Positions 2,883 to 55,860 of a DNA stretch of 64,000 bases are shown one piece after another. The DNA comes from Sabellastarte sp. h YS-2021 (lineage: Eukaryota > Annelida > Polychaeta > Sabellida > Sabellidae), in the NCBI GenBank assembly GCA_964017235.1, contig OZ024939.1:44680241-44744240 (forward strand), written 5' to 3'. The notes under the pieces were generated by a model. That model ran no database searches. It saw only the letters and a program-made list of their open reading frames with translations, and was not told the DNA's origin. Within the stretch, counting starts at the first letter, position 1, and every line of letters begins with the position of its first letter. Made by a program: the position numbers and the translations under genes.

Positions 2883-5189
2883 GTCAGTCAGACATCACCT
2901 TAAAAACTCATGTAATGTGTTTTATCGTACAGTTTTAACAACATAAAAAGTGTTATATTATTGTTACCCTACTTTTAACTCAGTAGCTTTTGATGCACTT
3001 TTGATAACATTATAGCCTATGATCAAGATACTTTGTAGTAGCACATCTTCAGTTGTTCACCAGATAAATCATTTCATCTCTACTTCCATAAAACACACCA
3101 AGTAGACAGAAGCCAGGACTCTTCACATAAACCCTTCCAACTAGTATGGTCGAAAAAGATTCAGTGTAAATTTGTTTCTTCTAAAACAGTTCAGTGTGAA
3201 GTAGGTTCCAGTATACATGACAGATAAATGGCACACAGTTGTATTTTATATGTGTCAGGGTGACTGAAGTGACCCAGACTGCCACCAGACCCACCAGTTT
3301 GCCACTACAGCAGAACACGCCTGAAGCTCACGGCACCTCAACATTTAGCATGAACCGCGGGCTGGCAGAGGCTCTACAGGAGCGAGATGTGAAGCAAGAG
3401 AAGGCTGACTCAGAGGAACATAAAGGTAAGTGTTTTAAAGTAAAAATCCCAAGGTTCTGTAAGAGAGAGATGTGAAGCAAGAGAAGGCTGACACAGAGGA
3501 ACATAAAGGTAAGTGTTTTAAAGTAAAAATCCCAAGGTTCTGTAAGAGAGAGATGTGAAGCAAGAGAAGGCTGACTCAGAGGAACATAAAGGTAAGTGTT
3601 TTAAAGTAAAAATCCCAAGGTTCTGTAAGAGAGAGATGTGAAGCAAGAGAAGGCTGACTCAGAGGAACATAAAGGTAAGTGTTTTAAAGCAAACCCCCCT
3701 TAGATTCAGCCCCAGAGGAATGTGAATAAATGGAAGGCTGACACAGAGGAACATAAAGGTAAGAATGTTAAAAACTGCAAGAGTCTACAGGAGAGAGATG
3801 TGAAGAAAGAGAAGGCTGGCACGGTGCAAGTTAAAAGTAAGTGACTGAAAAGAAGGAGTAAACAGTTCTACATGAGTGAGGTATGTGGCAAGAGAAGGAC
3901 AGAGTCAAAGGGTAAGAGACTGAATGACACCCAGATTCTAAAGGAGAAAGACATTCACCAAAAAAGAGTGACAGAGAGACGAATCAAGGTAAGAGTGTAT
4001 AAATCAGAAATAAAGGTTAGACATTGAAATCAGTGACTGACAGTTTCTACATAAAAAAAAAGAAAAATATATTTATAAAAATATATTATTTCTATTTCTC
4101 TGTATTTCAGGTCTGATGTCTCTCTTCACCTCCTGGTTGCGAGCACCGCGCCGTTTCTCCAGTCTAGTCACAGAGACGCCCGCCTCCAGCCATCAGTCTC
4201 ACACCAGTACTGTGTACACCCAGGCCTCCATGTACGTCCCGCCGCTCCCCGGCATCAACTCCAAGCCCATGAAGCACCAGCCTGAACAGGCCTACCTACA
4301 ACTGGTCAGCAAGATGAACGAGCACGGACCACACAGCATCCTGGGCATTGCAGAGAAGACTGGCATCTCCCCAGTAAAACGGGACCCCGTGGACGTGGGA
4401 CTCAACACTATGATGCTGATACGCAGGAACCGCATCACCGGGGCGACGGGCCAAAACAAGGCACAGACCCTACTGAGTGGCAGCGAGAGAGGTGGCCGCC
4501 CTGACAGCGGCATCCTAGGCAGAGTGGCACTAGCCAAATCAAAGAGTCTGAAGAATCAGGTGTTGAGTAGAACTGGACTGGGTGCCTGCACCAGTCCCCA
4601 GCAAGGTGTGATCAACAGACCGGACATCACCAGAAGTAAACAGACTGAGCACAGTAGCCCTGAGCAGACATCCAGAACAGGTTTAATGAATGCAGTACTG
4701 AGTGGGATGTCACCACTCAACTCAGGGCAATGCTGCAATACACCGGATAACACTGCCACTACACCCCGACACCCAGTCAGTGCCCCCAGACACTCCACCA
4801 GTACCCCCCGCCTCTCACAGGGTACTGCAGGGGGTATACCCCCCTTGGGCCTCCTGTCAGTGAGCACTCAGCAGACTAGTCTCCACACAGGTCCCGTGTA
4901 CCAGACCAGTGTGGCGGGTCTGGGTTACGCAGTCAGTCCCCCCAGTATACACTCAGTTACCACAGCGAGAGACAATGTGTACAACACCGCACCCCCACAC
5001 TCGGGTACCAATGTGGGTACTGGTACTGTCCACTCCCCTCACAAAACCCCCAGACCTCAAAGCTCCAAGACTAAGTCGGTGTACAACAGTGCAGAGGCCA
5101 CCATCAAAATCCTCGGCCAGGCAGTGAGGGCAAGAGAAAGCTGTGAGATGCTGGGTGGGCTGACGTCTACCCCCTTCAGTAAGTCCTAA
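2774..5189 (+). CDS. TRAK: TRAK/Milton mitochondrial trafficking adaptor, 3' end of gene (partial)
   Basis: Three exons (2774-2882, 3259-3425, 4111-5189) join in one frame with matching phases. The first carries TFTYTTSKVMHP, matching the TFTFTT-x-RILHP signature of vertebrate TRAK1/TRAK2. The second carries GTSTFSMNRGLAEALQERDV, matching the Ser/Thr-rich 'SLAxLLQERGI' block that follows it in TRAK proteins. The third is a long Ser/Thr/Pro-rich tail with an IRRNR motif near residue 103 of the exon, ending at TAA 5187-5189. TRAK/Milton proteins bind Miro on mitochondria and recruit kinesin-1 and dynein; the coiled-coil HAP1-like N-terminus would be encoded left of the window. The large last exon fits the family. 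One doubt is that TTCA|GTAAGT at 5178/5179 would also be a good splice donor, so the exon could continue elsewhere. The assignment rests on remembered motif similarity, not on a search. Confidence 0.78.
3259..3425 (+). CDS. TRAK: TRAK exon b
   Basis: Acceptor tgtgtcag|GG at 3258/3259 and donor CATAAAG|gtaagt at 3425/3426. Phase 2 in, phase 1 out. It encodes the STFS...GLAEALQERDVKQEK block. The last 42 nt of this exon, together with 41 nt of the following intron, are the seed of the 83-bp array that follows. Confidence 0.78.
3384..3990 (+). repeat. 83-bp tandem array made of exon end plus splice donor
   Basis: The string GAGATGTGAAGC starts at 3384 (inside the TRAK exon), 3467, 3550 and 3633, an exact 83-bp period. 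Each unit repeats the last 42 exon bases, the AAAG|gtaagtg donor and 41 intron bases. More diverged copies follow to about 3990, still with 'gaacataaaggtaag' and 'gagagatgtgaag' blocks. The intron therefore contains at least four additional strong GT donors. Confidence 0.92.
4111..5189 (+). CDS. TRAK: TRAK last exon, Ser/Thr/Pro-rich tail
   Basis: Acceptor tgtatttcag|GT at 4110/4111 in phase 1. The frame is open for 1077 nt to TAA at 5187. The N-terminal third is the more protein-like part (LFTSWLRAPRRFSS; HSILGIAEKTGISPVKR). The rest is low-complexity Thr/Ser/Pro/Gln. Base composition is clearly richer in GC than the flanks. Codon use and splice phase support coding. The exact C-terminus is uncertain because of the alternative donor at 5179. 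Confidence 0.75.
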
Positions 5190-5202
5190 CAGGTTAGGGG
5201 TA

Positions 5203-5640
5203 CACGTCTATCAGTGGTAACATCCACTGAATACACATCTAGCAATGGTGACAGCCACTGTATGCACATCCATCAGTGGTAACATTCACTGAATACATAC
5301 CCATCAGTGGTATAATTCACTGAATACACATCCATCAGTGGTATAATTCACTGAATACACGTCCATCAGTAGTATAAGTCACTGTATACACATCCATCAG
5401 TGGTAACATTCACTGAATACACATCCATCAGTGGTATAATTCACTGAATACACATCCATCAGTGGTAACATTAACTGTATACAAACCCATCAGTGGTAAC
5501 ATTTACTGTATACAAACCCATCAGTGGTAACATTCACTGTATACAAACCCATCAGTGGTAACATTTACTGTATACAAACCCATCAGTGGTAACATCCACT
5601 GTATACACATCCATCAGTGGTATAATTCACTGTATATGTG
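5203..5640 (+). repeat. 31-bp tandem array after the TRAK coding end
   Basis: About 14 units of the type 'catcagtggtaacattcact' plus 11 bases. Phase landmarks at 5209, 5271, 5302, 5333 and 5364 give a 31-bp period. It starts within 20 bp of the TRAK stop codon or possible donor, so it lies in the 3' UTR or the adjacent intron. Confidence 0.85.
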
Positions 5641-9690: not shown

Positions 9691-9699
9691 ATTGTATCC

Positions 9700-10510
9700 A
9701 ACCTGTAGGAAATCATGGGCTGGGAATCTGTTAATATGGTCCGATTTGACCTTGGAACCCTCCTTCAAGGTCAAATGAGGATAGCCAAACATAAAAGTGC
9801 TTATAACTCGCTTATTATTGGTCCTAGAGGTTTGGAATGAAAACCAACCTATAGAAAATCATGAGCTGGGAATTTTTTGGTGTGGTCGGATTTCACCTTG
9901 GACCCCTCCTTCAAGGTCAAATGAGGATAGCCAAACTTAAAAGTGCTTATAACTTGCTTATTATTGGTGCTAGAGGTTTGGAATGGAAAACCAACCTATA
10001 GAAAATCATGGGCTGGGAATCTTTTGGTGTGGTCAGGTTTGACCTTAGACCCCTCCTTCCAGGTCAAACGAAGATAGTCAAACTTAAAGTGCTTATAACT
10101 CGCGTATTATTGGTCTTGGAGGTTTGGGATGGTAAACCAACATATAGGAAATCATGGGCTGGGATTCTTTTGGTGTGGTCAGATTTGACCTGGGACCCCT
10201 CCTTCAAGGTCAATTGAGGATAGCCAAACTTACAATTGCTTATAACTCGCTTATTATTGGTCCTACAGGTTTGGGATGGTAAACAAGCTACAGGAAATCA
10301 TGGGCTGGGAATTTTTTGTGTGGTCGGATTTGACCTTAGACCCGTCCGTCAAGGTCAAACAAGGATAGCCAAACTTAAAAAGTGCCTATGACTCACTTAT
10401 TATTGGTCCGAGAGGTTTGGGATGGTAAACCATCCTAAATTCTTTGGCTGGGAATCTTTTGGTATGGTCAGATTTGACCTTTGGATCCCTTCTTCATGGT
10501 CGAATGAGGA
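9700..10510 (+). repeat. About 145-bp tandem array in family H1
   Basis: Five to six units built on 'atcatgggctgggaat', 'tggtgtggtcggatttgacc', 'ccctccttcaaggtcaa' and 'gcttataactcgcttattat'. The gggctggg landmark at 9717, 9863 and 10010 gives 146-147 bp. It recurs at 32310-33115 in copy 2. Confidence 0.88.
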
Positions 10511-10776
10511 TATTGCATTTATAGTATTTCTTTAAATATTTTTAACCTACTTTTTACACTTAAACAATTACCTTGTTACTTTATTTCATAATACCATTTG
10601 CAGGGCACAGCTTTTTTGTCCTTTTCTTCTGTCAGCTTCGGAATATCTTTCGAACAACTGTATTTCTGTACAGCCCTTTCCCTGATAATTATGCTTTCCT
10701 CTCATTATCACCATCACAAATCAAAAACATTCAGTCAGCTGACACAGTGCCCGTTCACGGGCACTCTCCTCTTGTT

Positions 10777-18035: not shown

Positions 18036-18128
18036 TAGTCATTTGGTGAAGAAATGATTCCCACAGGAAAGTTGAAAGATCAGAAGTCACATTCATCTAA
18101 TTGATAGTGTTTGGTGTGTTGTTGATTA

Positions 18129-27345: not shown

Positions 27346-27392
27346 TTATATCCCCAGACGAAAGTCGGGGATATATTGGATTCAGGTCCGTC

Positions 27393-27432
<40 letters not shown>

Positions 27433-30400: not shown

Positions 30401-30552
30401 CATCTTCCTTGGAAGATATAAACAGAGTAGATTGATGTGCTGAAGTTCATATAATAATGGGTAATTATGTTTTAAAAAATTCCCGATCAAAACCTGTGGC
30501 GTGAGTGATGACCTGTCTGGGGATATGTTGGCGCCGAGTTGGCCCAATCTAG
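27346..30552 (+). mobile_element. Helentron-like family H2, inner complete copy (3207 bp)
   Basis: A complete element from TTATATCCCC to CCCAATCTAG, inserted in the outer copy at its own acttA^TTtttg site. That same site is intact inside the inner copy at 29421/29422. Inner and outer copies are nearly identical apart from (GCC)n length and small indels (for example near 28306), so insertion was recent. The right part includes a G-rich stretch at 29876-29925. Small minus-strand reading frames in it are not conserved in any recognisable way. Confidence 0.78.
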
Positions 30553-38000: not shown

Positions 38001-38128
38001 GACTCACCAGCGGAGTGCCTCAGAGTGTGGACATAAGGACAATGGGAGGAAGTCAAGTGTGGAAAGTGTGCAATCTGCCAAGTCTGCAGTACACACAGGG
38101 GATCAAGAGATAGGTGTGGGGCATACAG
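35038..38128 (+). CDS. CDK14: Kinase exon 1 (giant, 1030 codons)
   Basis: Starts MGSVTSAL, which fits an N-myristoylation signal (Gly2, Ser6). The frame reads on to TAA at 38155, but CATACAG|gtaaat at 38128/38129 is a good donor. Phase 1 there fits exon 2 and would give ...[15 protein letters not shown]. The protein is Ser/Thr/Gln/Asp-rich and probably disordered. It has a basic patch near residues 64-80 ([15 protein letters not shown]) and three internal repeat blocks. I know of no family resemblance for it. It could instead be a separate single-exon gene ending at 38157, but that is less likely given the phase match and the donor-seeded array that follows. Confidence 0.7.
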
Positions 38129-41100: not shown

Positions 41101-44100
41101 TTTTTCTCAAATTAATCATTCACCTACTTTTGGGAGAGCTTTCACTTGGTGAAGTTTCAGACCCATAGCTAATTACTCGTCTACTCAAAATGAGTAAATG
41201 CGAATTATCTCTAAAAGTATTGCAGATAGCCAATTTTTCTCGAATAACTCATTCACCTACTTTTGGGAGAGCTTTCACTCTGTGAAGTTTCAGACCCATA
41301 GCTAATTACTCACCTACTCAAAATGAGTAAATGCGAATTATCTCTAAAAGTATTGCAGATAGCCAATTTTTCTCAAATAACTCATTCACCTACTTTTGGC
41401 AGAGCTTTCACTTGGTGAAGTTTCAGACCCATAGCTAATTACTCACCTACTGAAAATGAGTAAATGCGAATTATCTCTAAAAGTATTGCAGATAGCCAAT
41501 TTTTCTCAAATAACTCATTCACCTACTTTTGGGAGAGCTTTCACTTGGTGAAGTTTCAGACCCATAGCTAATTACTCACCTACTCAAAATGAGTAAATGC
41601 GAATTATCTCTAAAAGTATTGCAGATAGCCAGTTTTTCTCAAATTAATCATTCACCTACTTTTGGGAGAGCTTTCACTTGGTGAAGTTTCAGACCCATAG
41701 CTAATTACTCACCTACTCAAAATGAGTAAATGCGAATTATCTCTAAAAGTATTGCAGATAGCCAGTTTTTCTCAAATAACTCATTCACCTACTTTTGGGA
41801 GAGCTTTCATTTGGTGAAGTTTCAGACCCATAGCTAATTACTCACCTACTCAAAATGAGTAAATGTGAATTATCTCTAAAAGTATTGCAGATAGCCAATT
41901 TTTCTCAAATTAATCATTCACCTACTTTTGGGAGAGCTTTCACTTGGTGAAGTTTCAGACCCATAGCTAATTACTCGTCTACTCAAAATGAGTAAATGCG
42001 AATTATCTCTAAAAGTATTGCAGATAGCCAATTTTTCTCAAATAACTCATTCACCTACTTTTGGGAGAGCTTTCACTTGGTGAAGTTTCAGACCCATAGC
42101 AAATTACTCACCTACTCAAAATGAGTAAATGCGAATTATCTCTAAAAGTATTGCAGATAGCCAATTTTTCTCAAATAACTCATTCACCTACTTTTGGCAG
42201 AGCTTTCACTTGGTGAAGTTTCAGACCCATAGCTAATTATTCACCTACTCAAAATGAGTAAATGTGAATTATCTCTAAAAGTATTGCAGATAGCCAATTT
42301 TTCTCAAATAACTCATTCACCTACTTTTGGGAGAGCTTTCACTCTGTGAAGTTTCAGACCCATAGCTATTTATTCACCTACTCAAAATGAGTAAATGCTA
42401 ATTATCTGTAAAAGTATTGCGGATACCCAATTTTTATCAAATAGTCATTTATCTACTTGTGGGAGAGCTTTCACATGGTGAAGTTTCAGACCCATAGCTA
42501 ATTACTCACCTACTCAAAATGAGTAAATGCGAATTATCTGTAAAAGTATTGCGGATAGCCAATTTTTCTCAAATAACTCATTCACCTACTTTTGGGAGAG
42601 CTTTCACTTGGTGAAGTTTCAGACCCATAGATAATTATTCACCTACTCAAAATGAGTAAATGTGAATTATCTCTTAATAGTATTGCAGATAGCCAATTTT
42701 TCTCAAATAACTCATTCACCTACTTTTGGAAGACCTTTCACACACGAAAATGAAAAATTGTGAATATCTCGGAAAAGCTATTTCTTCTGCTTTAATGCTC
42801 GGCGGGAGATACACACCACGGCAGTGGTCTTGACAAAAATTTTTGTCTCCCCAAAAATGGTGGCCATTTTGAATTTTCAAAGTTTTTGCAAAACACAAAA
42901 ATGCTTATATCTCGAAAACCGTGCTATATGGAGTGAACTCAACAAAATTTTGGACCTGCTGGGTATCTCTGCAGAGTAGCCATGCCAATTTTCAAAATAT
43001 TTTTGTCTTGCCAAATATAGCGGACATTTTTAATTTTTTTATTTTTTGCAAAACACAAAAATGCTTATATCTTGAAAACCGTGCTAGATAGAGCAGACTG
43101 CGCTGACTTTGGTTGCCACAACAGTATAAGGCTAGAAACGAAGCATTTTCTTAATACTTTAGCACTCACCTTTATATCCTTTTCGGGACGCTTTGTTTTT
43201 GCTATGCAAAAACATTATCTTTTTTTTTTGCGAGCGATCCTCTAGTTTACTTTGATTTCACTTCTTTCTTTCAGTGAGGCAAAACTCCGAATCTGGCAGT
43301 GCAAAAGTATTAACATCTCCAAATTATCAGTATTGTACTTTCAATTCCTCTTCATTTGGATCAGCTCTCTATCCGTAAGCAAATTGTGTTCTGGGTCATC
43401 AGACTCTCACAGAGTAGCTTTTGTGTTGCAGGTAAAGAACGCTCCTCCATGAACCGCATCAAGAAACTCAAACGAAGAATCTCAGCAAGCTTCAGCAAAC
43501 TCTGTAAGTACTGCCAACCTCAGTAAGTAATGTCAAATGCTGTTAATACTGCCAAACTGTGTAAGTACTGACATACTGCAGTGAGTACTGTCAAACGGTG
43601 CAAGTACTGCCCGCCTCAGTAAGTACTGTCAAAATATGTAAGCACCGCCAACCTCAGTATGTGCTACCAAACTCTGTTGATGCTGTCATATTGTCTGAGT
43701 TCTGCCAATCTGTAAATATTCCCATTCTCTAGTAAGTACTGTCAAACTCTGTAAGTACTGCCAATATTTAGTAAGTACTGTCAAGCTTAACTAAGTACTG
43801 ATTTTCAACTCTGAAAACTTTATAGTGACTTTGTTCCATGCAGGCCTGTGGATGTGTCAGACCCCCTGAGATATAAGTGTAGGTTGCGGTCTTCCATTTG
43901 GGTCTGCATGTCTGGTGGATTCATGCACAGTAACTTTGATTATGTTTCTGTGTTTCAGCTCTTTCAAAGGAGGATAATTCAAGTATTAACGGCAGATGTA
44001 AAGATGGGGTGAGTACAGTTACTTTCAAAAGCTATATGTGTCACAAGAGAGATGATATTATTAAACCAGTGTGATAAGGTGATAGCTTGCCAAGTGGTTC

Positions 44101-47100
44101 TTGTATGTTTGTTAAGGGTAAACTGTGGTATTGTATGTATTACAGGGTTCAGTGAGTGAGATGATTAGTATGGTATGTATTACAGGGTTCAGGGAGTGAG
44201 GTGACTAGTATTGTATGTATTACAGGGTTCAGTGAGTGAGATGATTAGTATTGTATGTATTACAAGGTTCAGGGAGTGAAGTGACTAGTATTGTTTGTAT
44301 TACAGGGTTTAGTGAGTGAGATGACTAGTATTGTATGTATTGCAGGGTTCAGTGAGTGAGATGATTAGTATTGTATGTATTACAAGGTTCAGGGAGTGAA
44401 GTGACTAGTATTGTTTGTATTACAGGGTTTAGTGAGTGAGATGACTAGTATTGTATGTATTGCAGGGTTCAGTGAGTGAGATGATTTGTATGGTATGTAT
44501 TACAGGGTTTAGGGAGTGAGATGATTAGTATGGTATGTATTACAGGGTTCAGGGAGTGAGGTGACTAGTATTGTATGTATTACAGGGTTCAGTGAGTGAG
44601 ATGACTAGTATTGTATGTATTACAGGGTTCAGTGAGTGAGATGATTAGTATGGTATGTATTACAGGGTTCAGGGAGTGAGGTGACTAGTATTGTATGTAT
44701 TACAGGGTTCAGTGAGTGAGATGACTAGTATTGTATGTATTACAGGGTTCAGGGAGTGAGATGATTAGTATTGTATGTATTACAGGGTTTAGGGAGTGAG
44801 ATGACTAGTATTGTATGTATTACAGGGTTTAGGGAGTGAGATGACTAGTATTGTATGTATTGCAAGGTTCAGGGAGTGAGGTGACTAGTATTGTATGTAT
44901 TACAGGGTTCAGTGAGTGAGATGACTAGTATTGTATGTATTACAGGGTTCAGGGAGTGAGGTGATTAGTATTGTATGTATTACAGGGTTCAGTGAGTGAG
45001 ATGATTAGTATGGTATGTATTACAGGGTTCAGGGAGTGAGGTGACTAGTATTTTATTATCCACCACGCGACGTATTTGCCCTAAATACGGGGAAATACAG
45101 ACCGGGATGTATTTTTTTTGTATACACCGGCGCCCCGGTACTATGGATATTGAGTGTGATTAACTTCCGGTTTTTCAACAATATCTCGGAAAGTATGTAA
45201 CTTAAAATATGTATAATATATCATTAGAAAGGTGTTATTCTAGCGCTTCTGCTCATGTATGTTGCATAAATATCCATGCAGAAATGACTGAGATATTGCA
45301 AGGTAAAGATTGAAGTTTTATATTCAGTGTTGCTCATTCTTTTTGACAGTCTGTTTCACGTTTTCTCATTAAATATTCATATTATTTGACCCATAAATCG
45401 CACAAAATGGTGGATAATAAAAGTAAAACATCCCTCATCAGACATATACAGAAAAAATATATCACTCATGAAGATTAACAATATAATACTCGTGCTACGC
45501 ACTCGTATAATATTGTTATCTTCATTCGTGATATATTTTTTCTGTATATGTCATTCGGGACGTTTTCCTATTGTAGTGCATTGGAGTGCATTAGTGTAAG
45601 ATTGTATAGTATGTCACATAGTGCCTAATAGTATCCCAGAGTACATTGCATAAGTATGTCAGAGACTGCATTACATTGTGTATGCAAACAGAATGTATTG
45701 CATTTTTTGTATGTCACAAAGTGGATAACAGTTCAGGCAGTGAGATGACTAGTATTGTATGTATTACAGGGTTCAGTGAGTGAGATGATTAGTATGGTAT
45801 GTATTACAGGGTTCAGTGAGTGAGATGACTAGTATTGTATGTATTACAGGGTTCAGTGAGTGAGATGATTAGTATTGTATGTATTACAGGGTTCAGTGAG
45901 TGAGATGATTAGTATGGTATGTATTACAGGGTTCAGGGAGTGAGATGACTAGTATTGTATGTATTACAGGGTTCAGTGAGTGAGATGACTAGTATTGTAT
46001 GTATTACAGGGTTCAGTGAGTGAGATGATTAGTATGGTATGTATTACAGGGTTCAGGGAGTGAGATGACTAGTATTGTATGTATTGCAAGGTTCAGGGAG
46101 TGAGATGACTAGTATGTATTACAGGGTTTAGGGAGTGAGATGACTAGTATTGTTTGTATTACAGGGTTCAGACACTGAGGTGAGCAATGGTCGTCACTTC
46201 AGTTCAGTGGAGGGTTCCCCACCGGTGGGATACCCACTAGGTGGGGGGATTCCACCCAGTCACAAGCCGCCACCTCACCCTTACAGGTACATCTCATTTG
46301 AAAACCCTGTGATGCACCCGGCAACACAAGCTGTAAGACAGCTGCACATGACCAGCTCCATGGACGAAAGTCTGCTACTACAGCACACAGGCCAGCCAAA
46401 TGGAGGGCCAGCCATGAGCAGTAGTTACCATGCAGGTGTGATACTTGTATACTTAAACTTGTACTGAAATAAATCAATAAGATTCTTTGACTGCAGCATA
46501 CAGGCCAGCATAATGGAGGGCCAGCCATGAGCAGTAGTTACCATGCAGGTGTGATATGTATACTTAAACTTGTACTTCACTAAATCAGTAAGAGTCACTG
46601 ACTGCAGCATACGGGCCAGTATAATGGATCCTTCCATGATGGAGGGCCAGCCATGAGTAGTAGTTACCATGCAGGTACGGTACTTGTATACTTTAACTTG
46701 TACTGAAATAAATCAGTAAGAACCTGCAGCATACAGACCAGCATTATGGATCCTCCTATTATGGAGGGCCAGCCATGAGCAGTAGTTACCATGCAGGTAT
46801 GGTACTTGTACACTTAAACTTGTACTGAAATAAATCAGTGAGAATCTCTCACTGCAGCATACAGGCCAGTATAATGGAGGGCCAGCCATTAGAAATTATT
46901 ACCATGCAGGTAGAGAACATGTGAATGAGAATCTATTGCACCATCTTTCACATCATATTGGGCCACTGGTTATGTCTGTCTTCATGTAAATAGTTCCAAC
47001 TAGTCCATTTGGTATGTCTAAGGTATAAATCCAGTGTAGTTTTTTTGCTCCTCACAAAAGTAATTTATGCCACTTGTTTCAGTTCTGTTTTAGTTTTCTA

Positions 47101-50100
47101 GCTGAGATGTTGATTACAATCAGTATGAGTTTTGGATGAAAAAGTATGTACACAGCAATCATCTGTTTGTAATGTTTGTAAATAGGTGATTTTCCTAACA
47201 CCAGGGGCCGTATTCAAAAAAGGTCTTAGCCAAGTTTTTGGCTTAACCTTTGTATAAAAACTAAGCCTAAGACTTGGCTAAGACCTTTCGTGAATATGGC
47301 CCCAGTAGTCTTGGTTTTATCCTAAGTTGTGTCCAGCTTTCATCTTGTAAGAGAAGGGTTGGACATGTTTCTGCTGAATGTGTTTCTACCACTGCTGTTT
47401 TACACTCAGGTGACCACACGAGTCCCGCCCATCTCAACAACACCTACACCCAGCAGAGCAAGGAGTCGGGTTACTATAGCAACATACCCAGTTACCACGA
47501 GGTGGAGGGTCAGATGCATCACAGATACGACGCCACAAATCACCAAGCCAACAGACCTATATACCTAGATCAGCATCAGTACACAGGACAGCTTCAGCAC
47601 CCAGGTACAGTCTGTCTTTTATTATCCACCACGCGACGTATTTTCCCTAAATACGGGGAAATACAGACCGGGATGTATTTTTTTTGTATACACCGGCGCC
47701 CCGGTACTATGGATATTGAGTTTGATTAGCTTCCGGTTTTTAAACAATATCTCGGAAAGTATGTAACTTACAAATATGTATAATATATCATTAGAAAGGT
47801 GTTATTCCAGCGCTTCTGCTCATGTATGTTGCATAAAAATCCATGCAGAAATGACTGAGATATAGCAAGGTAAAGATTGAAGTTTTGTATTCAGTGTTGC
47901 TCATGCTGTTTGACGGTCTGTTTCACGTTTTCTCATTAAATATTCATATTATTTGACCCATAAATCGCACAAAATGGTGGATAATAAAAGTAAAACATCC
48001 CTCATCGGACATATGCAGAAAAAATATATCACTCATGAAGATTAACAATATAATACTCGTGCTACGCACTCGTATAATATTGTTATCTTCATTCGTGATA
48101 TATTTTGTCTGTATATGTCATTCGGGACGTTTTCCTATTGTAGTGCATTGGAGTGCATTAGTGTAAGATTGTATAGTATGTCACATAGTGCCTAATAGTA
48201 TCCCAGAGTACATTGCATAAGTATGTCAGAGACTGCATTACATTGTGTATGCAAACAGAATGTATTGCATTTTTTGTATGTCACAAAGTGGATAACAGTT
48301 CAGTAGTATGTTGCAGAGTGCATAAATGTGCATCAGTATGTGACAGGGTGTATTACAGTACATTAGCATGTCATTACAGTGCTATAGGGTAGGACAGAGT
48401 GCATTACAATACATTAGTAGGTCATAAGGTGCATTAGTTTGGTACAGAGGGCATTGCAGTGTCTTCTGTAAATGAGTGCAGAATAGTTGGAACCATGTCT
48501 CCATCTATAACACTGTGACTGGCCTGGATTTTTTCCAAGGACTACAGAGGGGAGGGGGAGGGGGATGTTCAGCCATCATAAAAGCACCAGGGCTATCTGG
48601 TAAAAAATAAAAAGCCATACGTGCATGTTGTAGAAGTTTCTATATCTCAGTGTTGGTATGTTGCTTCATGTGTGTGTGTGTGTATGTGCATGTGGAGAGA
48701 GTGCAAAGGTCACATCTGGTCAGGCTGTAGATCTGCAGCCAGTTTTACAAGTCACTGTGTGGATAAAAGAGAGATCCTATTTACTGCCTGAGTATACTGG
48801 TACAAACTATAGATGTGTGTTTAGTCTTATGAATGCTGAACTAGATTTCATCTGCATTATAAATGGTGCCACAACCACTACAAACCTTTTTGTATTTTAC
48901 ATAATTGTAACATGATAAAAGTCCTTTTGAGTGGAAATATTAGTTTTGACCAAGAACCTTTGTGTTAAGATATATGAAAAATCAAAACACAAGAGAAGCT
49001 TTGAACTGAGCTCAGTTTTACTTGTCGGTATGTTGTGATGTTTGGTGGGATGTATCTTGGTATATGTAACAGATAATGGTCATGTACTAATATAGCATGT
49101 TACACTGCAATGTTATTGTGAAATTCACAATAGAGACACTGATAAAAGGCAAATCAGCGATTCCATTAGTGGAGATCTCAATTGAAGTTTCAATTGCCAA
49201 TTAAAAACCCAATGACCAAATCCCCTTATTCCAGGTTTTGTAAAGTCAGTTTATTTTAAAACTTAATGTCAGTAAAGTGCTAGTTATGTCTACTGTATGA
49301 GAAAATACAGAATGTTAAACAATTCTGAAGATCCAAGAGGCTTTTATTGTTGAGTAACATAAGTGTATACATTCTATTTTTATACATGAGGTGCATAAAA
49401 TGGTCAAGCTGTCTCACTGTCACCAGTGTGTGTATTTTAGTCTGTATTGTACCATATTCTGTATATTCTACTGTACCCTGTGGTTTGTACTCAATTCTTT
49501 GTTTCATACTGTATTCTGTGTCTTGAACTGCACTTTTTGTATTTTTCTGTAGTCTGTGTATTGAAACCATAGTGTGTGTACTAGTGGGTGGACGATTAGA
49601 CGTGTGCTCAATTAATCGTCGGTGACAGTGTGGAATCGCAGTCGGTCACTGACGTTTTCTAATGATCAATTATTAAGCTTATATCTTACCTTTCTTGATT
49701 TATTTCAATATCCACGTCTTAAAAAATATTTTTGGTATTTTTATATTTAATAAACTGACAGTTTTGTCTTCAATTTCAAGTTTGTTTATGTCTACCACCA
49801 TATTTACAGGAAGAGAGTGCTTTCAGTTGATTCTAAATTTCGGAACACCGTTATTCTTATCGGATTGACCTATAGTTTATCTCGGAAAGTGTTTCTTTAA
49901 TAATAAACAATAATAGAGTAAAATAATCAATTATGGGTCAATCATCGGTTGGAAAAATGGACGAATAATCGACCATGAAAATTGGAGGCGATTCCCAACA
50001 CTAGTGTGTACAGTGTATTGTGTTAGTGTATTCAGTATGCAACCATAGCGTGTGTACAGTGTTCTGTTACTGTATTCAGTACACAAGTGTGTTATGTGTA

Positions 50101-53100
50101 TTTTAGCTGTAGAGAGGTTACAGCACACACCAGTAAAGCGTCATCACTCCACTGGTGACATGTTGGACCCCCAGGCTCACTCGGTCACCACTGAGGAGGT
50201 GAGACTTCGGCCAGTCAAACATCGACATCCGCGACCCAAGTCTGACGGTAACTTCATCATCGAGGGCTTTGTGCCCAAGAGAGCTTCAAGCTTTGGGGTG
50301 AGTGGACAAATTGGTCAATGATCTGTATATATGTTAAGCAGAGAAATGGAGGCCCTCAGTGACCCAGTGGGTTGGTATGTTTGGCATTTAATCAGAGGCT
50401 GTCACCTCTGTGTGGGTTTGACTCCCACAATGTCGAGGGCCTGTCCAAATGTGACCCTGGCTGTTGAATGGGAGATAGAATACTAGCTTTAACTTTGACA
50501 TTAACTATGGAAATATGTTGAACAAAGTCTGTCCAACAGCTGTGGTAGTATTGAGACCAGTCTGCAGCATGTCTATTTGCTGCAATGAGTTGGAACCCAG
50601 TTGAGTGAGTTGAGAACGAAGCAGTATTAAAGGCCATTGCCTTCACTGGGAGTTTGTACTGACTCACAGGGACAACTCAGTTACTCTGCACAAGAACCTC
50701 CTTCACTTGAACATATGTGACCATTGGTTAACGCACGTGCATGCGTGAAAAGAGGTGTTTCAGATAAAATTCTTATAAATAATTATAAGTGTGAGTGTTT
50801 ATAAATGGCAAACGTTTGACCAAGAGTTCATTAATTGAGATAAATATAAAAATAATACTGAGATGACTGCTGTGTGTGTGTGTTTCAGTTCAACTCTCCG
50901 TTCGGTAAGGCCGAGTGTTACGAGAAGTTGGACCAGCTGGGAGAGGGATCCTACGCCACTGTGTACCGCGGCATTAGCAGGTACGTCAACTCTCACACAC
51001 TCTTTGCTTTTTTCGATGGTTGATTGAGTGACTGACTTTATTGGTAACTCATTGCAGAATGGTCACAATAGCTTGGTTGAATAATTGATAATCGATTGTC
51101 TTACTGGCTGATGGACTGAATGGTATAGCACTTGAATTGGGTCCACAACTGTGAAGGAGCAATATGCCAAATTTGTACTGGTAGATTTTCAGACTGTTGA
51201 CTCTGGCTGTTGAGTATGCTAGTGTTATTTTCAAGTCTGACTGTTGAGTCTGCAACTACTGCGTATTTTTAGAAAATACAAACTGTGTTCAGCCCTTAGC
51301 TGTTTGGTCTGTTTATGTTATTTTCAGACAAAATGTTGTGTCTGCAGTTGTTCAGTTTGTTACTGTTAATTGAAGACTGATGGTTAAAGTGGTTGCCCTG
51401 AAGTAGAACCATTCCCTGATTGAAGGGGGATTTTCCATTTTGCTTACTGGTTATTTATATGTGTTGTTTATTTTGCAGACTGACAGGTAAAGTGGTTGCC
51501 CTGAAGGAGATCCGGTTACAACAGGAGGAGGGTGCACCATTCACAGCCATCAGAGAGGCGTCATTACTAAAAGGCCTGAAACACGCAAACATCGTCACAC
51601 TGCACGACATTATACACACGCGGGACACGCTGACGTTTGTGTTTGAGTTTGTGGTGAGTGTCTGGCTGAGTGGAGAGTTACTTCTTCATGTACAGGAAAC
51701 AGGAAGTTTACCACCACACTTCTCAAGCAATAACATAGTATCCCTGAGTGCAAAGGCAGGGGGACGATTGTGGTTTTAAACTGCAAAAACTACTTTCAAA
51801 ACAAGTTTCACAATATCAATAACTTGGAGGCCAGTCACTAGTCTAGTGTCTTAACTAAACTTGGAAAGTAATCTGTGTCTATCTTCTCTAGGGTGATGGG
51901 TTCTAACCTGGCTCTGACAACGTGTGGTCACTGCTGCAGGCATGTCTAAATCTGGTGTTAGATGTCGAGTGAAGAGATATATGTACTCAGTGTTGACATG
52001 ATGAACTAGTATGTGCAGTATATAGTGTGAAAAGCAGTGTTATTACATGTTTTATCATTTTTAGAAACCACCCAACACTCCAACATTATCTTAAACATGA
52101 GGACATTACTTTCATTTAAAACATCTGTTGTTATCAGCTCCCTGCCTTTTTCATAAAACCTCAACACAGACCCAGTATGAGGACATTATGGTATTTGGTT
52201 CAATGTTCTACTAGAACATAATCTTTTGTAAATTCAATCTCTCAAGTAATGATTAGTAATATTTTAAAGAAAATTTGACTGTAATTTACTGAGTGTGTTT
52301 TGTTTCAGCACACGGATCTGAGTCAGTACCTGGAGAAACACCCTGGAGGCCTCAACCCCAGAAATGTCAAGGTCAGTGCTTTGTACTCAGTCTGCATGCT
52401 TGTTCTATATCATTAAGAACCAATCCAGTTACGGGGCCGGTCTTTCTGTATTTTCATACTTGCTGTATTTTGTGTATTCTCTGTATTTCAGTTACTCCTG
52501 TTCCAGTTATTACGTGGCCTGTGTTTCTGTCACCAGAGAAGAATCCTCCACCGAGATCTCAAACCCCAGAATCTCCTCATCTCTCAGATAGGCGAGCTCA
52601 AGCTGGCAGACTTTGGTCAGTTGGTTTAGTTATTTATTATTGGCCTAAATAACCTGCATTTCTCTGATGCACTGAGAATAAGTTGAAATTTTAATTGATA
52701 TTTTTCCAAATCAGGCTTAAGTTTTATAAGATTTCTAATTGATTTATTATACAAAAGTTTCTGTTTGACCAAAACACTTATTTTTGACATATTCTCTGTA
52801 TTGATAACACACGTTAGAACCCTGGAAGCATGAGAGAATTGCCGTGTGTTGTAGGTCTAGCGAGAGCCAAGTCAATCCCCAGTCACACATACTCACACGA
52901 AGTGGTGACGTTATGGTACCGGCCCCCGGATGTACTGCTGGGGTGTACTAACTACACCACCTCACTGGACATGTGGTATGTACTTCCTATACATACATAG
53001 AGGTATGCACTCGATGTACATGTGGTATGTACTTACTGTACATGTGGTTATTACTAACTGTACATGTGGTATGTACTTCCTATATACATAGAGGTATGTA

Positions 53101-55596
53101 TCAACTATACATCTGGTATGTACTTAATGTACATCTGGTATGTACTTAATCTACATGTGGTATGTTCTTTATGTGCATGTGGCATGTACTTAATGTACAT
53201 GTGGTTTGTCCTTGTTTGTCATGTGGTTATTACTGACTGTACATGTGGGGTATTTACACACTGTACTTGTGTTTTTCAGGGGAGTGGGCTGTATCTTCAC
53301 AGAGATGATTGCGGGCTCGGCCACATTTCCTGGCATGAAGGACGCACTCGATCAGTTGGATCGCATCTGGAGGGTGAGTAGATGCCCTGCTCTGAACACA
53401 CAGAGAGTTCTTCTAATGAGAACCTGTGTATATGTTGTTACAGTAAAAATATGTGAAATCAGTACATCATCTGAGTGGTAGGAGGTGGGTGTGTTCGTTG
53501 TTTATGACACTTTACCCCAGTAGAGTTTGTTGAGACATTGGACTGTAGAACACTGTTGTCTATCTGCAGGTGATGGGCACGCCAGGAGAAGAGGACTGGG
53601 AGGGAGTCACTGCCTACCCCAACTACGACCTCAGTGAGTGCCATACTACACAACCCTTATTAGGACATGCTTATTTTCACTTTAGCATGCACCAAGTTGT
53701 GGTCACAGGAAAATCTTGTGGCCATAACATCTCATGAGTGCGACTTATCACTTTTTGAGCATGATGTATTATGTCATTGTATCAAGATGATGTAGTGATC
53801 ACAGAATCATCTGGTGATCAAATTTAAATAATTTATGAACACCATATCAACTGGTGATCACTACATTGTAATTAAGTCTTGAGCACAACCTACGTTTACA
53901 AACTCTTCTATTGTTCACAAGATCTTCTGGTAAAAATTGCCATATTATAAGATCATAAAATCTTCTGGTGATCTACAGATAATGAACTGCTTCTGCTCAC
54001 AGGATCTTCTCTTCAAAACCTTCTCAACTTAAATCTCAGTAAAAATTCCCGCAGCATCAGAATTTAAAGTTCCTAAAATTACTTGTGTTTACACTTTATA
54101 TATCATGCTGAACAAATATTCTTGTTGCTGAAGATACTGAGTTATCTTTTCTGTCATCTCAGTTTTTCTATAAACTATTTTAAAAAGCTATGCTCTAAGC
54201 AGCTATTTCTTGTAATCTGTGCTTTTTATGTTCACAGGCAAATTTGGAAACTATCGACGTCAGCGCCTTTCCACACTTATCCCTAAATTGGCACACATTC
54301 CATACGCAGAAAACCTGGCAGACTCACTGCTTCATATCCAGCCAGGGCGACGAATCACTGCCCATACCGCCATGCACCACAGATACTTCACAGACCTGCC
54401 CACACAGGTCTACCATCTGGAGGATGGTAAGTCAACGGGTCCACCACCTGCAGGAGGTTAAGTTAACAAGTCTACCACCTGTAGGAGTGTAACTGAACAG
54501 GTGTACCACCTGAAGGAGAGTAAGTTAGCAGGTCTATCACCTGGGAATGGTAAGTCAACGGGTCCTACACCAATAGCTGATTAAGTTAACAGGTCTTCCA
54601 CCTGGAGGATGGTCCACTAATGGATCCACCACCTGCAGGAGATTCAGTTAGCAGGTCTACCAGCTGTAGGATTGTAACAGGTTTACCACCTAAAGGAGAT
54701 TAAGTTAGAAGTTCTGCCACTTTTAGGAGAATAAGAAATTGTTCTGCCACTTGATGAGATTAATTGAACAGGTGTACCACCTGGAGGATGGTAAGTCAAC
54801 GGATCCACCACCTGCAGGAGATTAAGTCAGCAGGTCTACCACCTGTAGGATTGTAACTTAACAGGTTTACCAGCTGAAGGAGATGAAGTCAGCAGGTCTA
54901 CCACCTGTAGGAGTGTAACTTAACAGGTTTACCAGCTGAAGGAGATGAAGTCAGCAGGTCTACCACCTGTAGGAGTGTAACTTGACAGGATTACTGCCTC
55001 AAGGAGAGTAAGTTAGCAGGTCTACCACCTTGAAGAGAACAAGTTAATTGTTCTGCGACCTGGAGGATAGCAAATTAACAGCCCTGCCAACTGGAAAAAA
55101 GTAAGTTAACAGTAAGTAACTTGGGAGGAGACAGATGAAGCTACAGGATGATTAGTTAACAACACCTTGACAGTGAGTCAAGTGATCTGCCACCTGGAAA
55201 ATTGTGAGTAAATATTAGGAGCTGTCTAGACAATGGTAGAGATGTGAAGTGGGGGAATTTGATTGTGAGTTGTTGATTTGTCTGAAGACATAGTGATGTA
55301 ATGTCAGTAAAATGTCTTGGTACTGAAATTCTAAGTTTTCCCTTTGTGCAAACCTGTGTAAAAAGAATGCCAGGTGTAACATGGCAAGGATTAAAGCTTT
55401 GAACAATGTTCCCATGCAGAGGTTGAGATGTGTGTAGCTGTGTAACAACCAGCCACTTGTTGTTCACAGACTACTCTGTGTTTTGTATACAGGGAGGTCG
55501 CTGTTTGACATTCCTGGTGTGAAGCTGGCGCCCGAGATGGATCAGTTGTTACGCACACAGATACGCACCAACCCACACACCACAGCCCGTGTCTGA
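35038..55596 (+). CDS. CDK14: PFTAIRE-type cyclin-dependent kinase (CDK14/15, Eip63E orthologue), 15 coding exons, long isoform
   Basis: Exons: 35038-38128, 43432-43503, 43959-44008, 46165-46435, 47410-47604, 50107-50297, 50889-50980, 51479-51653, 52309-52371, 52492-52615, 52855-52975, 53280-53373, 53570-53633, 54238-54426, 55493-55596. Total 4896 nt, 1631 aa, every junction in phase. Kinase domain from about residue 1301: glycine loop GEGSYATVY (1308-1316), catalytic Lys1330, PFTAIRE helix (1341-1347), HRD (1420-1422), DFG (1440-1442), then LWYRPPD. It ends in [14 protein letters not shown], as in CDK15. A basic block [16 protein letters not shown] upstream matches the KKLRR-x-SESFSRI segment of CDK14. 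Family members act with membrane-bound cyclin Y, phosphorylate LRP6 in Wnt signalling and, in flies, control morphogenesis. Invertebrates usually have one gene for both vertebrate paralogues, so CDK14 versus CDK15 is not resolvable. The kinase identity is certain; inclusion of the giant first exon is inferred from phase. Confidence 0.93.
35641..35770 (+). repeat. Short coding repeats, '[12 protein letters not shown]' type
   Basis: About three copies of a 13-14-residue unit (residues about 201-244 of the long isoform): GRGEDTIQS-x-HS appears twice nearly unchanged. Confidence 0.8.
36295..36500 (+). repeat. Coding repeats, 'GYREN' type
   Basis: Residues about 419-488. Five copies of [YF]REN/S alternate in two flavours (KTGYRENV, then IGVVQ). 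A higher-order repeat of about 36 residues shows local tandem duplication inside the exon. Confidence 0.85.
37068..37330 (+). repeat. Coding repeats, 'GxQSVTSG' type
   Basis: Residues about 677-764. About nine copies of a 9-11-residue unit such as SGIQSVTDG or SGAHSVTG, in phase with the frame. Confidence 0.85.
38114..38815 (+). repeat. 60-bp tandem array starting at the exon 1 donor
   Basis: About 12 units of gtaaatcaaagtcactgtgg plus 40 bases. Each unit ends in a sequence like GAGTGGAGCACTGAG|gtaaat, a diverged copy of the true exon end GTGTGGGGCATACAG|gtaaat. The intron therefore carries about a dozen donor-like sites. Minus-strand reading frames of up to 175 codons across it are artefacts of the repeat. 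Confidence 0.92.
38816..39128 (+). other. Unique intron sequence
   Basis: Nothing recognised between the 60-bp array and the Helentron-like element. Confidence 0.5.
39540..40350 (+). repeat. 169-bp tandem array inside H3
   Basis: ATGGCGGCC landmarks at 39689, 39858, 40027 and 40196, exactly 169 bp apart. The units also contain 'tatctcgaaaaccgtgctag' and 'gagcgatttcgacgaaattt'. Homologous to the array at 1-1135. Confidence 0.93.
40350..42740 (+). repeat. 133-bp tandem array inside H3
   Basis: About 18 units. Landmark gagctttcac at 40471, 40604, 40737 and 40870 gives 133 bp. Units contain 'gtgaagtttcagacccatag', 'actcaaaatgagtaaatgcg', 'aaagtattgcagatagccaa' and 'attcacctacttttggg'. Units are very homogeneous in the middle and more diverged at both edges, as expected of an array maintained by unequal exchange. 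It is clearly related to the 155-bp array of family H1. Confidence 0.93.
43432..43503 (+). CDS. CDK14: Kinase exon 2
   Basis: Acceptor ttgcag|GT, donor ACTCT|gtaagt; phase 1 in and out. Encodes [23 protein letters not shown], the conserved basic block of CDK14/PCTAIRE-like N-termini. The RRIS serine sits in a basophilic-kinase/14-3-3-like context. The internal Met at 43449 could start a third isoform. Confidence 0.9.
43496..43800 (+). repeat. Tandem array seeded by exon 2 end plus donor
   Basis: The exon end CAAACTCT|gtaagtactg is repeated, more or less decayed, about every 37 bp as 'gtcaaactctgtaagtactg' alternating with 'ccaacctcagtaagtactgt'. Clear copies lie near 43504, 43555, 43592, 43628 and 43745. 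Nearly every unit keeps a GT donor. Confidence 0.88.
43959..44008 (+). CDS. CDK14: Kinase exon 3
   Basis: Acceptor tgtttcag|CT, donor GATGGG|gtgagt; 50 nt, phase 1 in, 0 out. Encodes [16 protein letters not shown]. Confidence 0.82.
45051..45422. mobile_element. TIR element, copy 1, inside the 40-bp array
   Basis: 14-bp terminal inverted repeats TTTTATTATCCACC / GGTGGATAATAAAA. No coding capacity. The same element is at 47617-47989. Confidence 0.75.
45425..45566. repeat. 142-bp near-perfect palindrome, copy 1
   Basis: Runs from AAAACATCCC to GGGACGTTTT. The arms (tatacagaaaaaatatatca / tgatatattttttctgtata) pair almost throughout around a short centre at 'cgtgctacgcactcg'. It could be a foldback MITE. 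A second copy is at 47992-48133. Confidence 0.85.
46165..46435 (+). CDS. CDK14: Kinase exon 4
   Basis: Acceptor tattacag|GG, donor CATGCAG|gtgtga; 271 nt, phase 0 in, 1 out. Encodes a Gly/Pro/Ser/His-rich linker ([20 protein letters not shown]...). No known domain. Confidence 0.85.
46381..46912 (+). repeat. Tandem partial duplication of the exon 4 end (four mini-exon copies)
   Basis: The last ~52 nt of exon 4 and about 60 nt of intron recur four more times (about 46494, 46606, 46727 and 46856). Each copy has ctgcag|CATAC before it as a potential acceptor. The first three keep CATGCAG|gt as donor and the last ends at ATGCAG|gtagag. Copies 2-4 gained or lost a short 'ATGGATCCT' insert. Read in the exon 4 phase, each copy meets a stop codon. 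Confidence 0.9.
47214..47303. mobile_element. 90-bp palindromic MITE, 'GGGGCCGTATTC' type
   Basis: GGGGCCGTATTCAAAAAAGG at the left, and reversed GGGGCCATATTCACGAAAGG at the right, with 'cttagccaag' / 'cttggctaag' inside. It lies 106 bp before exon 5. Confidence 0.85.
47410..47604 (+). CDS. CDK14: Kinase exon 5
   Basis: Acceptor cactcag|GT, donor CACCCAG|gtacag; 195 nt, phase 1 in and out. Encodes a Tyr/His/Gln/Asn-rich linker ([20 protein letters not shown]...). Low-complexity but codon use is exon-like and phases fit. Confidence 0.83.
47617..47989. mobile_element. TIR element, copy 2, 12 bp after the exon 5 donor
   Basis: Same TTTTATTATCCACC ends as 45051-45422 and almost identical throughout. 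The identity continues past the element, through the palindrome and 170 bp of flank, to 48303. Confidence 0.78.
47992..48133. repeat. 142-bp near-perfect palindrome, copy 2
   Basis: Same foldback as 45425-45566 with a few substitutions (catcggacatatgcag). Confidence 0.85.
48134..49573 (+). other. Kinase intron sequence
   Basis: 48134-48470 is loosely repetitive ('gtatgtcacagagtgcatta' variants). There is a short (GT)n at 48667-48682. The remainder is unique, with no exon seen. Confidence 0.5.
49582..50003. mobile_element. hAT-like non-autonomous element (422 bp)
   Basis: Flanked by an exact 8-bp duplication gtgtgtac (49574-49581 and 50004-50011). Ends TAGTGGGTGGACGATT and, reversed, TAGTGTTGGGAATCG. 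The 8-bp duplication and TAGTG ends are typical of hAT elements. The core (about 49655-49895) matches the core of the TA-flanked element at 31578-32057. Confidence 0.83.
50107..50297 (+). CDS. CDK14: Kinase exon 6
   Basis: Acceptor gtattttag|CT, donor TTTGGG|gtgagt; phase 1 in, 0 out. Encodes [15 protein letters not shown] and the segment ending [10 protein letters not shown], just N-terminal of the kinase domain. It corresponds to the Ser-rich 14-3-3-type region of CDK14. Confidence 0.9.
50348..50502 (+). mobile_element. tRNA-derived SINE, copy 3
   Basis: A-box-like TGACCCAGTGGG and B-box-like GGGTTTGACTCCCAC, then 'gaccctggctgttgaa' and the tail 'tttaactttgac'. Best preserved of the three copies. 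It lies 50 bp after the exon 6 donor. Confidence 0.82.
50889..50980 (+). CDS. CDK14: Kinase exon 7 (start of catalytic domain)
   Basis: Acceptor tgtttcag|TT, donor TTAGCAG|gtacgt; phase 0 in, 2 out. Encodes [20 protein letters not shown] and the rest of the glycine loop. Confidence 0.97.
51371..51406 (+). pseudogene. Decayed duplicate of the exon 8 start
   Basis: 'gactgatggttaaagtggtt' and 'gccctgaagtagaacc' match the exon 8 start (gactgacaggtaaagtggtt, gccctgaaggagatcc) 107 bp upstream of it. The stop TAG replaces GAG. The acceptor is lost. Confidence 0.85.
51479..51653 (+). CDS. CDK14: Kinase exon 8 (catalytic Lys and PFTAIRE helix)
   Basis: Acceptor tttgcag|AC, donor TTTGTG|gtgagt; phase 2 in, 0 out. 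Contains [10 protein letters not shown] (Lys1330), [20 protein letters not shown] and FVFEFV. Confidence 0.98.
51654..52308 (+). other. Kinase intron 8
   Basis: Unique sequence, no repeat or gene seen. Confidence 0.6.
52309..52371 (+). CDS. CDK14: Kinase exon 9
   Basis: Acceptor tgtttcag|CA, donor GTCAAG|gtcagt; 21 codons, [20 protein letters not shown], phase 0 in and out. Nearly identical in type to the CDK14/15 segment. Confidence 0.97.
52492..52615 (+). CDS. CDK14: Kinase exon 10 (HRD and DFG)
   Basis: Acceptor gtatttcag|TT, donor GACTTTG|gtcagt; phase 0 in, 1 out. Contains [10 protein letters not shown] (1420-1429) and LADF(G). Confidence 0.98.
52855..52975 (+). CDS. CDK14: Kinase exon 11 (activation segment)
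   Basis: Acceptor tgttgtag|GT, donor GACATGTG|gtatgt; phase 1 in, 2 out. Contains [20 protein letters not shown] and [10 protein letters not shown]. Confidence 0.98.
52965..53276 (+). repeat. Intron array seeded by exon 11 end plus donor
   Basis: The whole intron is about ten degenerate units of 25-35 bp. They carry tgtACATGTG|gtatgtactt, a copy of the last seven exon bases with the donor (for example 53017, 53040, 53063, 53151 and 53195). Almost every unit retains a usable GT. Confidence 0.88.
53280..53373 (+). CDS. CDK14: Kinase exon 12
   Basis: Acceptor gtttttcag|GG, donor TGGAGG|gtgagt; phase 2 in, 0 out. [20 protein letters not shown] (helix F region). Confidence 0.98.
53570..53633 (+). 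CDS. CDK14: Kinase exon 13
   Basis: Acceptor tatctgcag|GT, donor GACCTCA|gtgagt; phase 0 in, 1 out. [20 protein letters not shown]. Confidence 0.97.
53634..54237 (+). other. Kinase intron 13
   Basis: Loose recurrence of 'gatcataaaatcttctggtg' (about 53808, 53851, 53920, 53953), a decayed low-order repeat. No gene. Confidence 0.5.
54238..54426 (+). CDS. CDK14: Kinase exon 14
   Basis: Acceptor ttcacag|GC, donor GAGGATG|gtaagt; phase 1 in and out. C-lobe end: [28 protein letters not shown]-like [17 protein letters not shown]. Confidence 0.97.
54400..55210 (+). repeat. Intron array seeded by exon 14 end plus donor
   Basis: The exon end ACAGGTCTACCATCTGGAGG ATG|gtaagt is echoed about 20 times in units of 30-45 bp. 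Examples are 'aacaggtgtaccacctggag gatggtaagt' at 54767 and 'gcaggtctaccacctgtagg' at several places. Copies are diverged in both halves. Confidence 0.9.
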
Positions 55597-55599
55597 CAG
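55493..55599 (+). CDS. CDK14: Kinase exon 15 with stop codon
   Basis: Acceptor gtatacag|GG, phase 1 in. Encodes [20 protein letters not shown] then a 14-residue tail ending TTARV and TGA at 55594-55596. A donor CAG|gtattg follows only 3 nt after the stop, so the 3' UTR appears to be spliced to 56301. Confidence 0.93.
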
Positions 55600-55860
55600 G
55601 TATTGACATGTTCTATTGACATTTGTATTGTATATCTGTGCTAGGATGAACATGTATTGACAGGTTGTGTTTGCATTTATACTGTGTCACACCTGACATG
55701 CATTGACAGGTTGTCTTCACACCTGTACTGTGTGTGTAAGACGTGACATGTGTTGACAGCTTGTGTTCACACCTGTGGTGTGTTTACGAAGTCTGTCATC
55801 TATTGACTGGTTGTATTGACACCTGTAGTGTGTTTGTGTTTGACCTGACATTTATGGGAC
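55594..55860 (+). repeat. Intron array seeded by the exon 15 end
   Basis: About five units of 45-60 bp with 'tattgacaggttgtgttcac' and 'acctgacatg'. They echo the exon end CTGACAG|gtattgacatg. Confidence 0.82.

Follow-up and report, generated by a model that had tools for sequence, protein, structure and literature searches.

Tandem Arrays at Splice Junctions in Two Neighbouring Genes of Sabellastarte Resemble the Mirages of Amphioxus

Two Genes and the Arrays at Their Exon Edges

The window analysed here is the whole 64,000-nucleotide stretch of contig OZ024939.1 of Sabellastarte sp. h YS-2021 (C20:44680241-44744240), from a genome that totals 1,785,957,881 bp (~1.79 Gb). It contains two neighbouring genes, A and B, both on the plus strand, with tandem arrays at their exon edges that copy the splice site. 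These junction arrays are a known but little-studied kind of repeat, called mirages in amphioxus. We consider it likely that they are mirages produced by local tandem duplication blind to gene structure, with exons cleaned by selection and copies of junctions tolerated.

Gene B, which we take to be probably of the CDK14/15 type, has a single uninterrupted frame of 1631 amino acids in 15 coding exons with GT-AG introns, followed by an exon of 3' untranslated region (B16) that starts at 56301. A protein kinase domain (Pfam PF00069, E 8e-63) makes up its C-terminal part. The nearest solved structure to that domain is CDK16 (PDB 9r2i), and this homology spans exons B7-B15. A Pfam search with the visible exons of gene A gave no match. 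Both gene models were drawn by eye, following the open frame and the GT-AG rule; the B7-B15 junctions are supported by the CDK16 alignment, and those of gene A and B1-B6 by frame and GT-AG alone. The genes and their junction arrays are as follows.

2774..5189, plus strand: gene A, last three visible exons 2774-2882, 3259-3425 and 4111-5189, with the stop codon
35038..55599, plus strand: gene B, CDK16-like kinase, exons B1-B15 (frame, GT-AG, Pfam, CDK16 homology)
2650..2782, plus strand: weak acceptor array, exon A1; junction before 2774; best copy 2650-2685
3380..3990, plus strand: donor mirage, exon A2; junction 3425; 83-bp unit, ~7.6 copies
38127..38815, plus strand: donor mirage, exon B1; junction 38128; 60-bp unit, 11.6 copies
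43496..43800, plus strand: donor mirage, exon B2; junction 43503; 19-bp unit, ~16 copies, strongly decayed
44128..46171, plus strand: acceptor mirage, exon B4; junction before 46165; 40-bp unit, 23 + 11 copies
46377..46912, plus strand: donor mirage, exon B4; junction 46435; ~112-bp unit, 4.6 copies
51364..51403, plus strand: single extra copy of the exon B8 start and acceptor; junction before 51479
52964..53248, plus strand: donor mirage, exon B11; junction 52975; 22-bp unit, ~12.6 copies
54404..55112, plus strand: donor mirage, exon B14; junction 54426; 31-bp unit, ~23 copies
55591..55837, plus strand: weaker donor mirage, exon B15; junction 55599, directly past the stop codon; 49-bp unit, ~5 copies

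Tandem Repeats Finder (TRF) delimits arrays at 3380-3763, 38127-38815, 43496-43800, 44128-45056 plus 45731-46171, 46377-46844, 52964-53248, 54404-55112 and 55650-55837. The gene model places a splice junction within each of the seven from 3380-3763 through 54404-55112, while the copy of junction 55599 is a diverged array member beyond the TRF limits. By those limits, exon sequence accounts for 2 to ~59 bases of the first unit (46 in the A2 donor mirage, ~59 in the B4 donor mirage), except that for 55599 the TRF start lies past the junction. Many, not all, of the array copies carry the AG/GT signals. A sequence-only reading of this DNA had given unit lengths of which 83, 60, 40, about 110 (112) and 50 (49) stand; its 37 becomes 19, its 30 becomes 22, and the 40 it gave for the array at 54400-55210 becomes 31. 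That reading also held that no single repeat family explains the arrays, and this is upheld. The units, 19 to 112 bp long, are mutually unrelated; no junction array has a match in the window beyond itself, and the B1 donor and B4 acceptor arrays found only their own loci in a genome-wide search that skipped very common words.

Collapse or inflation of repeats by the assembler is barely credible as the source. One draft amphioxus mirage was apparently aberrantly assembled, according to excerpts of PMC3087553. Here, however, the copies of an array differ from one another (62 to 93% matches by TRF), a block has been inserted into one of the arrays, and unrelated genes in the same assembly have comparable arrays.

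The inserted block, of ~690 bp, splits the B4 acceptor array; what had been read as one array at 44131-46164 is indeed an acceptor array but is not continuous. The block at 45048-45736 is 97.7% identical to 47614-48303 in intron B5-6. Within it are an element that has terminal inverted repeats of 15 bp, a palindromic segment and ~160 bp more of intron B5-6 sequence; the block terminates at a GTTCAG common to both sites. Judging by these features, it is possibly a templated insertion into the array.

Copies in the A2 array decay with distance from the exon (rho -0.94, p 0.005). The same test on the B14 and B2 arrays, the other two of three tried, found no such decay, and growth from the exon side was dropped as a general rule.

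Duplication of Junctions into the Adjoining Introns

Each junction was represented by a 60-mer centred on it and compared with the adjoining intron against 200 dinucleotide shuffles; a positive had to score above all 200 shuffles with an alignment covering the junction. By this measure, 10 of 36 junction probes are duplicated into the adjoining intron, and the arrays that copy splice sites at exon edges are real. The positives are seven donors (3425, 38128, 43503, 46435, 52975, 54426 and 55599) and three acceptors (2774, 46165 and 51479), so that either boundary of an intron can be duplicated. Six donors and one acceptor belong to clear arrays, one donor and one acceptor to weaker arrays, and one acceptor has a single copy. 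That last one, 51479 with its copy at 51364-51403, is an addition to the sequence-only reading. Two further probes above all shuffles were discarded since their match was a 12-bp self-overlap with the target (score 24) that left the junction uncovered.

With 30-mers (37 probes), seven of the ten remain clear, and 51479, 55599 and 2774 are weak (p 0.05, 0.08 and 0.07). The array reported as a weaker case at 2520-2773 accordingly stands at its acceptor, 2774, with the longer probe and only weakly with the shorter. Acceptor 50889 reached the p floor with the 30-mer and was rejected, its match lying 1415 bp downstream, outside the adjoining intron. Copies of exon-edge 24-mers scoring at least 26 were found for 4 of 34, compared with 0 of 652 exon-internal ones; at a score of at least 24, there are 4 exon-edge and 6 exon-internal copies. 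Because exon interiors are under selection, these echoes are evidence of duplication of exon edges and not of targeting.

Had the introns arisen through tandem duplication of exon DNA carrying AGGT, the same segment would be expected at both ends of an intron. In amphioxus, mirages have been proposed to supply the material from which new introns arise (excerpts of PMC3087553). Among the 17 introns tested at both ends, however, none has a significant junction-covering copy at both, and intron gain is a very improbable account of the arrays.

Splice Sites inside the Arrays

In most of the donor arrays, some decoys equal the real donor in their pairing with U1, and in the B4 donor array three exceed it. 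The B15 array has no decoy with at least six consensus matches. The B4 acceptor array has 28 TATTACAG sites. To the sequence-only reading, such copies suggested decoys or splice buffering, and selection could act on them through spliceosome recruitment, alternative isoforms or decay of mis-spliced RNA. The strong U1 pairing kept by decoys in most arrays is in favour of such a function, as is the short read-through from the five coding mirage donors of gene B, which meets a stop within 7 to 11 codons compared with 4 to 41 for nine other donors.

The conservation of the splice motif was ranked against all windows of the unit in eight arrays, and the windows scoring as high or higher are 3/83, 12/60, 9/19, 87/112, 8/22, 26/31, 10/49 and 14/40. 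In seven of the eight, the splice columns are not specially conserved relative to the rest of the unit; the A2 donor, at 3/83, is considered below. Every one of the 31 decoys tried (a selection: 19 donors and 5 acceptors in gene B, 7 donors in gene A) closes the frame prematurely and truncates the protein; correct splicing must therefore ignore them. Only in-frame units could yield isoforms, and of the nine intron arrays eight have units not divisible by 3. Since the tried decoys truncate the frame and the splice columns are not better conserved except in A2, we favour tolerance of the junction copies over a function for them. There is little support for selected decoy or buffering sites, which we regard as improbable. 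We infer from the frame that the exon-proximal site is the one used, in agreement with the statement on reverse transcription PCR (RT-PCR) in excerpts of PMC3087553.

Junctions of Other Genes in the Genome

The sample outside the window comprises 115 junctions of kinase and myosin genes elsewhere in the genome (66 kinase, 49 myosin). The kinase share covers 58 of 131 match rows (16 of 30 listed loci plus 42 further regions), with rows spanning the whole domain and most rows with stops omitted, and the myosin share covers 28 of 78 match rows (20 regions). Junctions were located by rule from the end of the family match, not from RNA. Junction-spanning copies were found at 12 of 115 junctions, compared with 141 of 1610 intron-interior probes and 4 of 228 exon-interior probes. 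Junctions do not differ detectably from intron interiors (Fisher p = 0.50; hand-computed 95% range of the odds ratio ~0.65 to 2.3), and exon interiors are duplicated less than junctions (p = 6e-4). The kinase-only pass gave 6/66 for junctions, 17/330 for intron interiors and 2/193 for exon interiors, and an earlier, smaller sample had 2 junction matches in 29. The twelve are 5 donors and 7 acceptors, and the donor bias of the window is absent.

By inspection, three of the 12 are probable whole-exon copies (the L070 donor and both sides of L077) and one is a 4-bp microsatellite (L075). Filtering leaves 8/115, of which L025, L033, L044 and L094 are clear and L055, the L070 acceptor, L082 and L084 are weak. 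All 12 were kept in the statistics because the intron controls lacked the same filtering. The acceptor of a myosin exon, L094, has a junction array with a 43-bp unit in 8.5 copies. The strongest donor array outside the window, at kinase exon L044, has a 54-bp unit in 13.3 copies (1657-2381); the TRF limits start 18 bp beyond the junction, and a diverged copy aligns across it. L025 and L033 are single junction duplications. Junction copies are thus not confined to the window, and clear arrays exist in unrelated genes.

The copies at both sides of L077, 538 and 833 bp away, and the copy of the L070 donor, 631 bp away, resemble duplicated exons, not mirages. They are perhaps alternative exons.

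Are Junctions Special?

The sequence-only reading had proposed a recurrent process aimed at exon-intron borders. Such a process might act through R-loops, fork stalling or AGGT-centred break repair there. The sample shows no detectable junction excess (12/115 against 141/1610), and a process aimed at splice junctions beyond the window is not supported by it. In the window, junctions are even cooler than intron interiors: 8 of 35 junction probes are matched, compared with 34 of 81 in intron interiors and 8 of 48 in exon interiors. The rule here was at least 10 aligned bases on each side, and junctions 55599 and 2774, though significant, failed it. Raw coverage was consequently rejected as evidence of enrichment and, with junction coverage below that of intron interiors, array placement alone carries a signal.

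Several results weigh against duplication that takes no account of gene structure. The first is the placement of arrays in the window, where 8 of 9 intron single-locus minisatellites include a junction compared with 1.1 to 3.9 expected. The expectation is from uniform placement in introns with 10 to 100 bases of exon overlap allowed, and P runs from 3e-9 to 1e-3 with the overlap allowed, array extents being partly set by hand. With TRF limits for the B15 array, 7 of 9 include a junction (P 3e-7 to 0.016). With all 15 TRF rows, the count is 8/15 against 1.1 to 2.9 expected, a count that includes a short coding repeat extending to donor B5; with unique arrays only, it is 7/11 against 1.2 to 3.2. 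These P values are flattering, because the window was chosen for showing this pattern. Second, single-locus minisatellites (units of at least 15 bp in at least 3 copies, counted by hand from TRF rows) occur at higher density inside the two genes than in the sequence separating them (12 of 13, P = 3e-4). In this one window, that concentration suggests a connection of some kind with transcribed sequence and would not be predicted by a fully blind process. Third, exons are not uniformly clean, although all 8 of the 48 exon-interior probes that are duplicated lie in exon B1. Finally, the A2 donor motif is among the best conserved windows of its unit (3/83), as selection for decoys would have it.

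Targeting would draw on the same placement count, on the donors among the duplicated window junctions (7 of 10), and on the clustering of matches in the sample. Of 15 sample junction flanks with a run of at least 3 matched positions, 6 are also matched at the junction (scored by eye), which is above a simple seed model; in 3 of those 6, one missed probe lies between the run and the junction match. A process in this lineage that starts duplications preferentially at junctions, so that about one in ten gains splice-site copies, could be masked in a position-by-position sample because its arrays then spread into introns, and the excess in the window would be its signature. We hold that proposal doubtful. 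Against targeting by R-loops, stalling or break repair stand the sample and window coverage, the missing donor bias in the sample, and the units themselves, which have no common motif or length. Their guanine-cytosine skew is mixed (positive in 7 of 9, negative in 2), and two-unit folds of 9 units, each compared with 200 shuffles, gave no significant hairpin (lowest p 0.12). Such targeting is unlikely. Short inverted repeats are visible by eye in several units; with no significant fold among the nine, slippage driven by hairpins was rejected.

Placement and coverage thus disagree, and a modest junction bias, up to about two-fold, is possible. In the sample as a whole, junctions behave like intron sequence and not like a hot spot, and exon interiors are mostly protected.

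Repeats away from the Junctions

The arrays had been said always to include the junction, and this proved too strong. Two minisatellites of the window lie apart from any junction detected.

5201..5636, plus strand: 31-bp array in 14 copies, past the gene A stop codon (TRF)
49443..49565, plus strand: intron-interior 38-bp minisatellite that touches no junction, a counter-example

The first starts 12 bp beyond the stop codon in the final visible exon of gene A. It had been listed as a weaker junction case at 5203-5640; the array (31 bp x 14) is real, but neither 30-mer nor 60-mer probes gave a signal at the junction proposed for it, 5178. Exon B1 likewise has arrays inside it: three different coding tandem repeats at 35642-35764, 36301-36493 and 37119-37326. 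Their units of 39, 45 and 42 bp are all multiples of 3, the outcome expected under selection.

Large tandem arrays with units of 133 to 351 bp lie at 1-1135, 7507-10512, within 23345-33118, and at 39562-42741. Most of those that are intergenic, and the satellite in intron B1-2, belong to families that recur in the window. Our guess is that they are possibly internal repeats of non-autonomous transposons. Downstream of gene B, at 57997-58424, a 216-bp unit is present in two copies with 97% matches.

Mirage-Type Arrays in Another Large Genome

The sequence-only reading knew of no description of serial arrays at junctions. Amphioxus mirages, cited here from excerpts of the papers, are such a description. 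They are minisatellite-like tandem repeats across exon-intron boundaries of Adh3 and the globin genes BflGb6 and BflGb9 (PMC3087553), where other loci are cited from work on a retinol dehydrogenase and on presenilin (PMC3087553), and also of troponin C and PGBD5, the latter holding two (PMC3902484). They apparently leave splicing undisturbed by RT-PCR and vary between haplotypes (PMC3087553). A genome-wide TRF run in amphioxus addressed density, not junctions, in the excerpts of PMC2632668, and we found no genome-wide count of arrays at splice junctions in the open-licence papers searched, an incomplete set.

The arrays described here are like those of amphioxus in occurring at both donors and acceptors, in having locus-specific units (10 to ~160 bp in amphioxus) and in carrying AG/GT in many copies (excerpts of PMC3087553 and PMC3902484). 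They differ in number, with ten affected junctions in two genes side by side and others elsewhere in a genome that, at 1.79 Gb, does not fit Branchiostoma (~0.5 Gb), and they are known here from genome sequence alone. The taxon-restricted families PF14830 and PF01303 gave no match, but their controls were equally silent, which makes them uninformative on a cephalochordate host. Three scans with DNA patterns and a protein scan of viral contigs came back empty, and a scan of prokaryotes gave one match, in Thalassospira, taken to be chance. Intron gain by internal or tandem duplication (the Rogers model; potato RdRp, PMC4974935) likewise copies splice-like signals by tandem duplication; here, in contrast, the duplicated segment is at one end of an existing intron. 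In human duplicated genes (excerpts of PMC2812944), internal tandem repeats alter exon-intron structure by minisatellite expansion, some of it at exon-intron boundaries, but those repeats are in segmental duplications and half are coding. Introner-type elements put related sequences at many introns, whereas the junction arrays have no relatives in the window, nor in the genome for the two searched there.

Mirage formation by structure-blind duplication, which we prefer, would run as follows. Local tandem duplication is common in the introns of this genome. A short segment that happens to include a splice junction would be tandemly duplicated, giving a locus-specific minisatellite that may then grow by slippage or unequal exchange. 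Selection would purge most copies in exon interiors, except where they are in frame and the protein can accommodate them. Junction-spanning copies would persist, because the spliceosome stays with the exon-proximal site and the messenger RNA is unchanged. Directly observed are the arrays, the absence of relatives for them in the window (and for two genome-wide), the many decoy donors of equal strength and the sampled duplication rates; slippage or unequal exchange, near-neutrality and use of the exon-proximal site are what we suppose from them.

Mirages have so far been reported in a handful of amphioxus genes, as far as the excerpted papers go, and here junction-spanning copies are found at about a tenth of the sampled junctions of another large genome. 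Decoy splice sites of this kind are a hazard for gene predictors and short-read mappers. Their presence raises the question of whether tandem duplication ignores or favours gene boundaries, and of how the spliceosome chooses the exon-proximal site when as many as a dozen similar copies are present.

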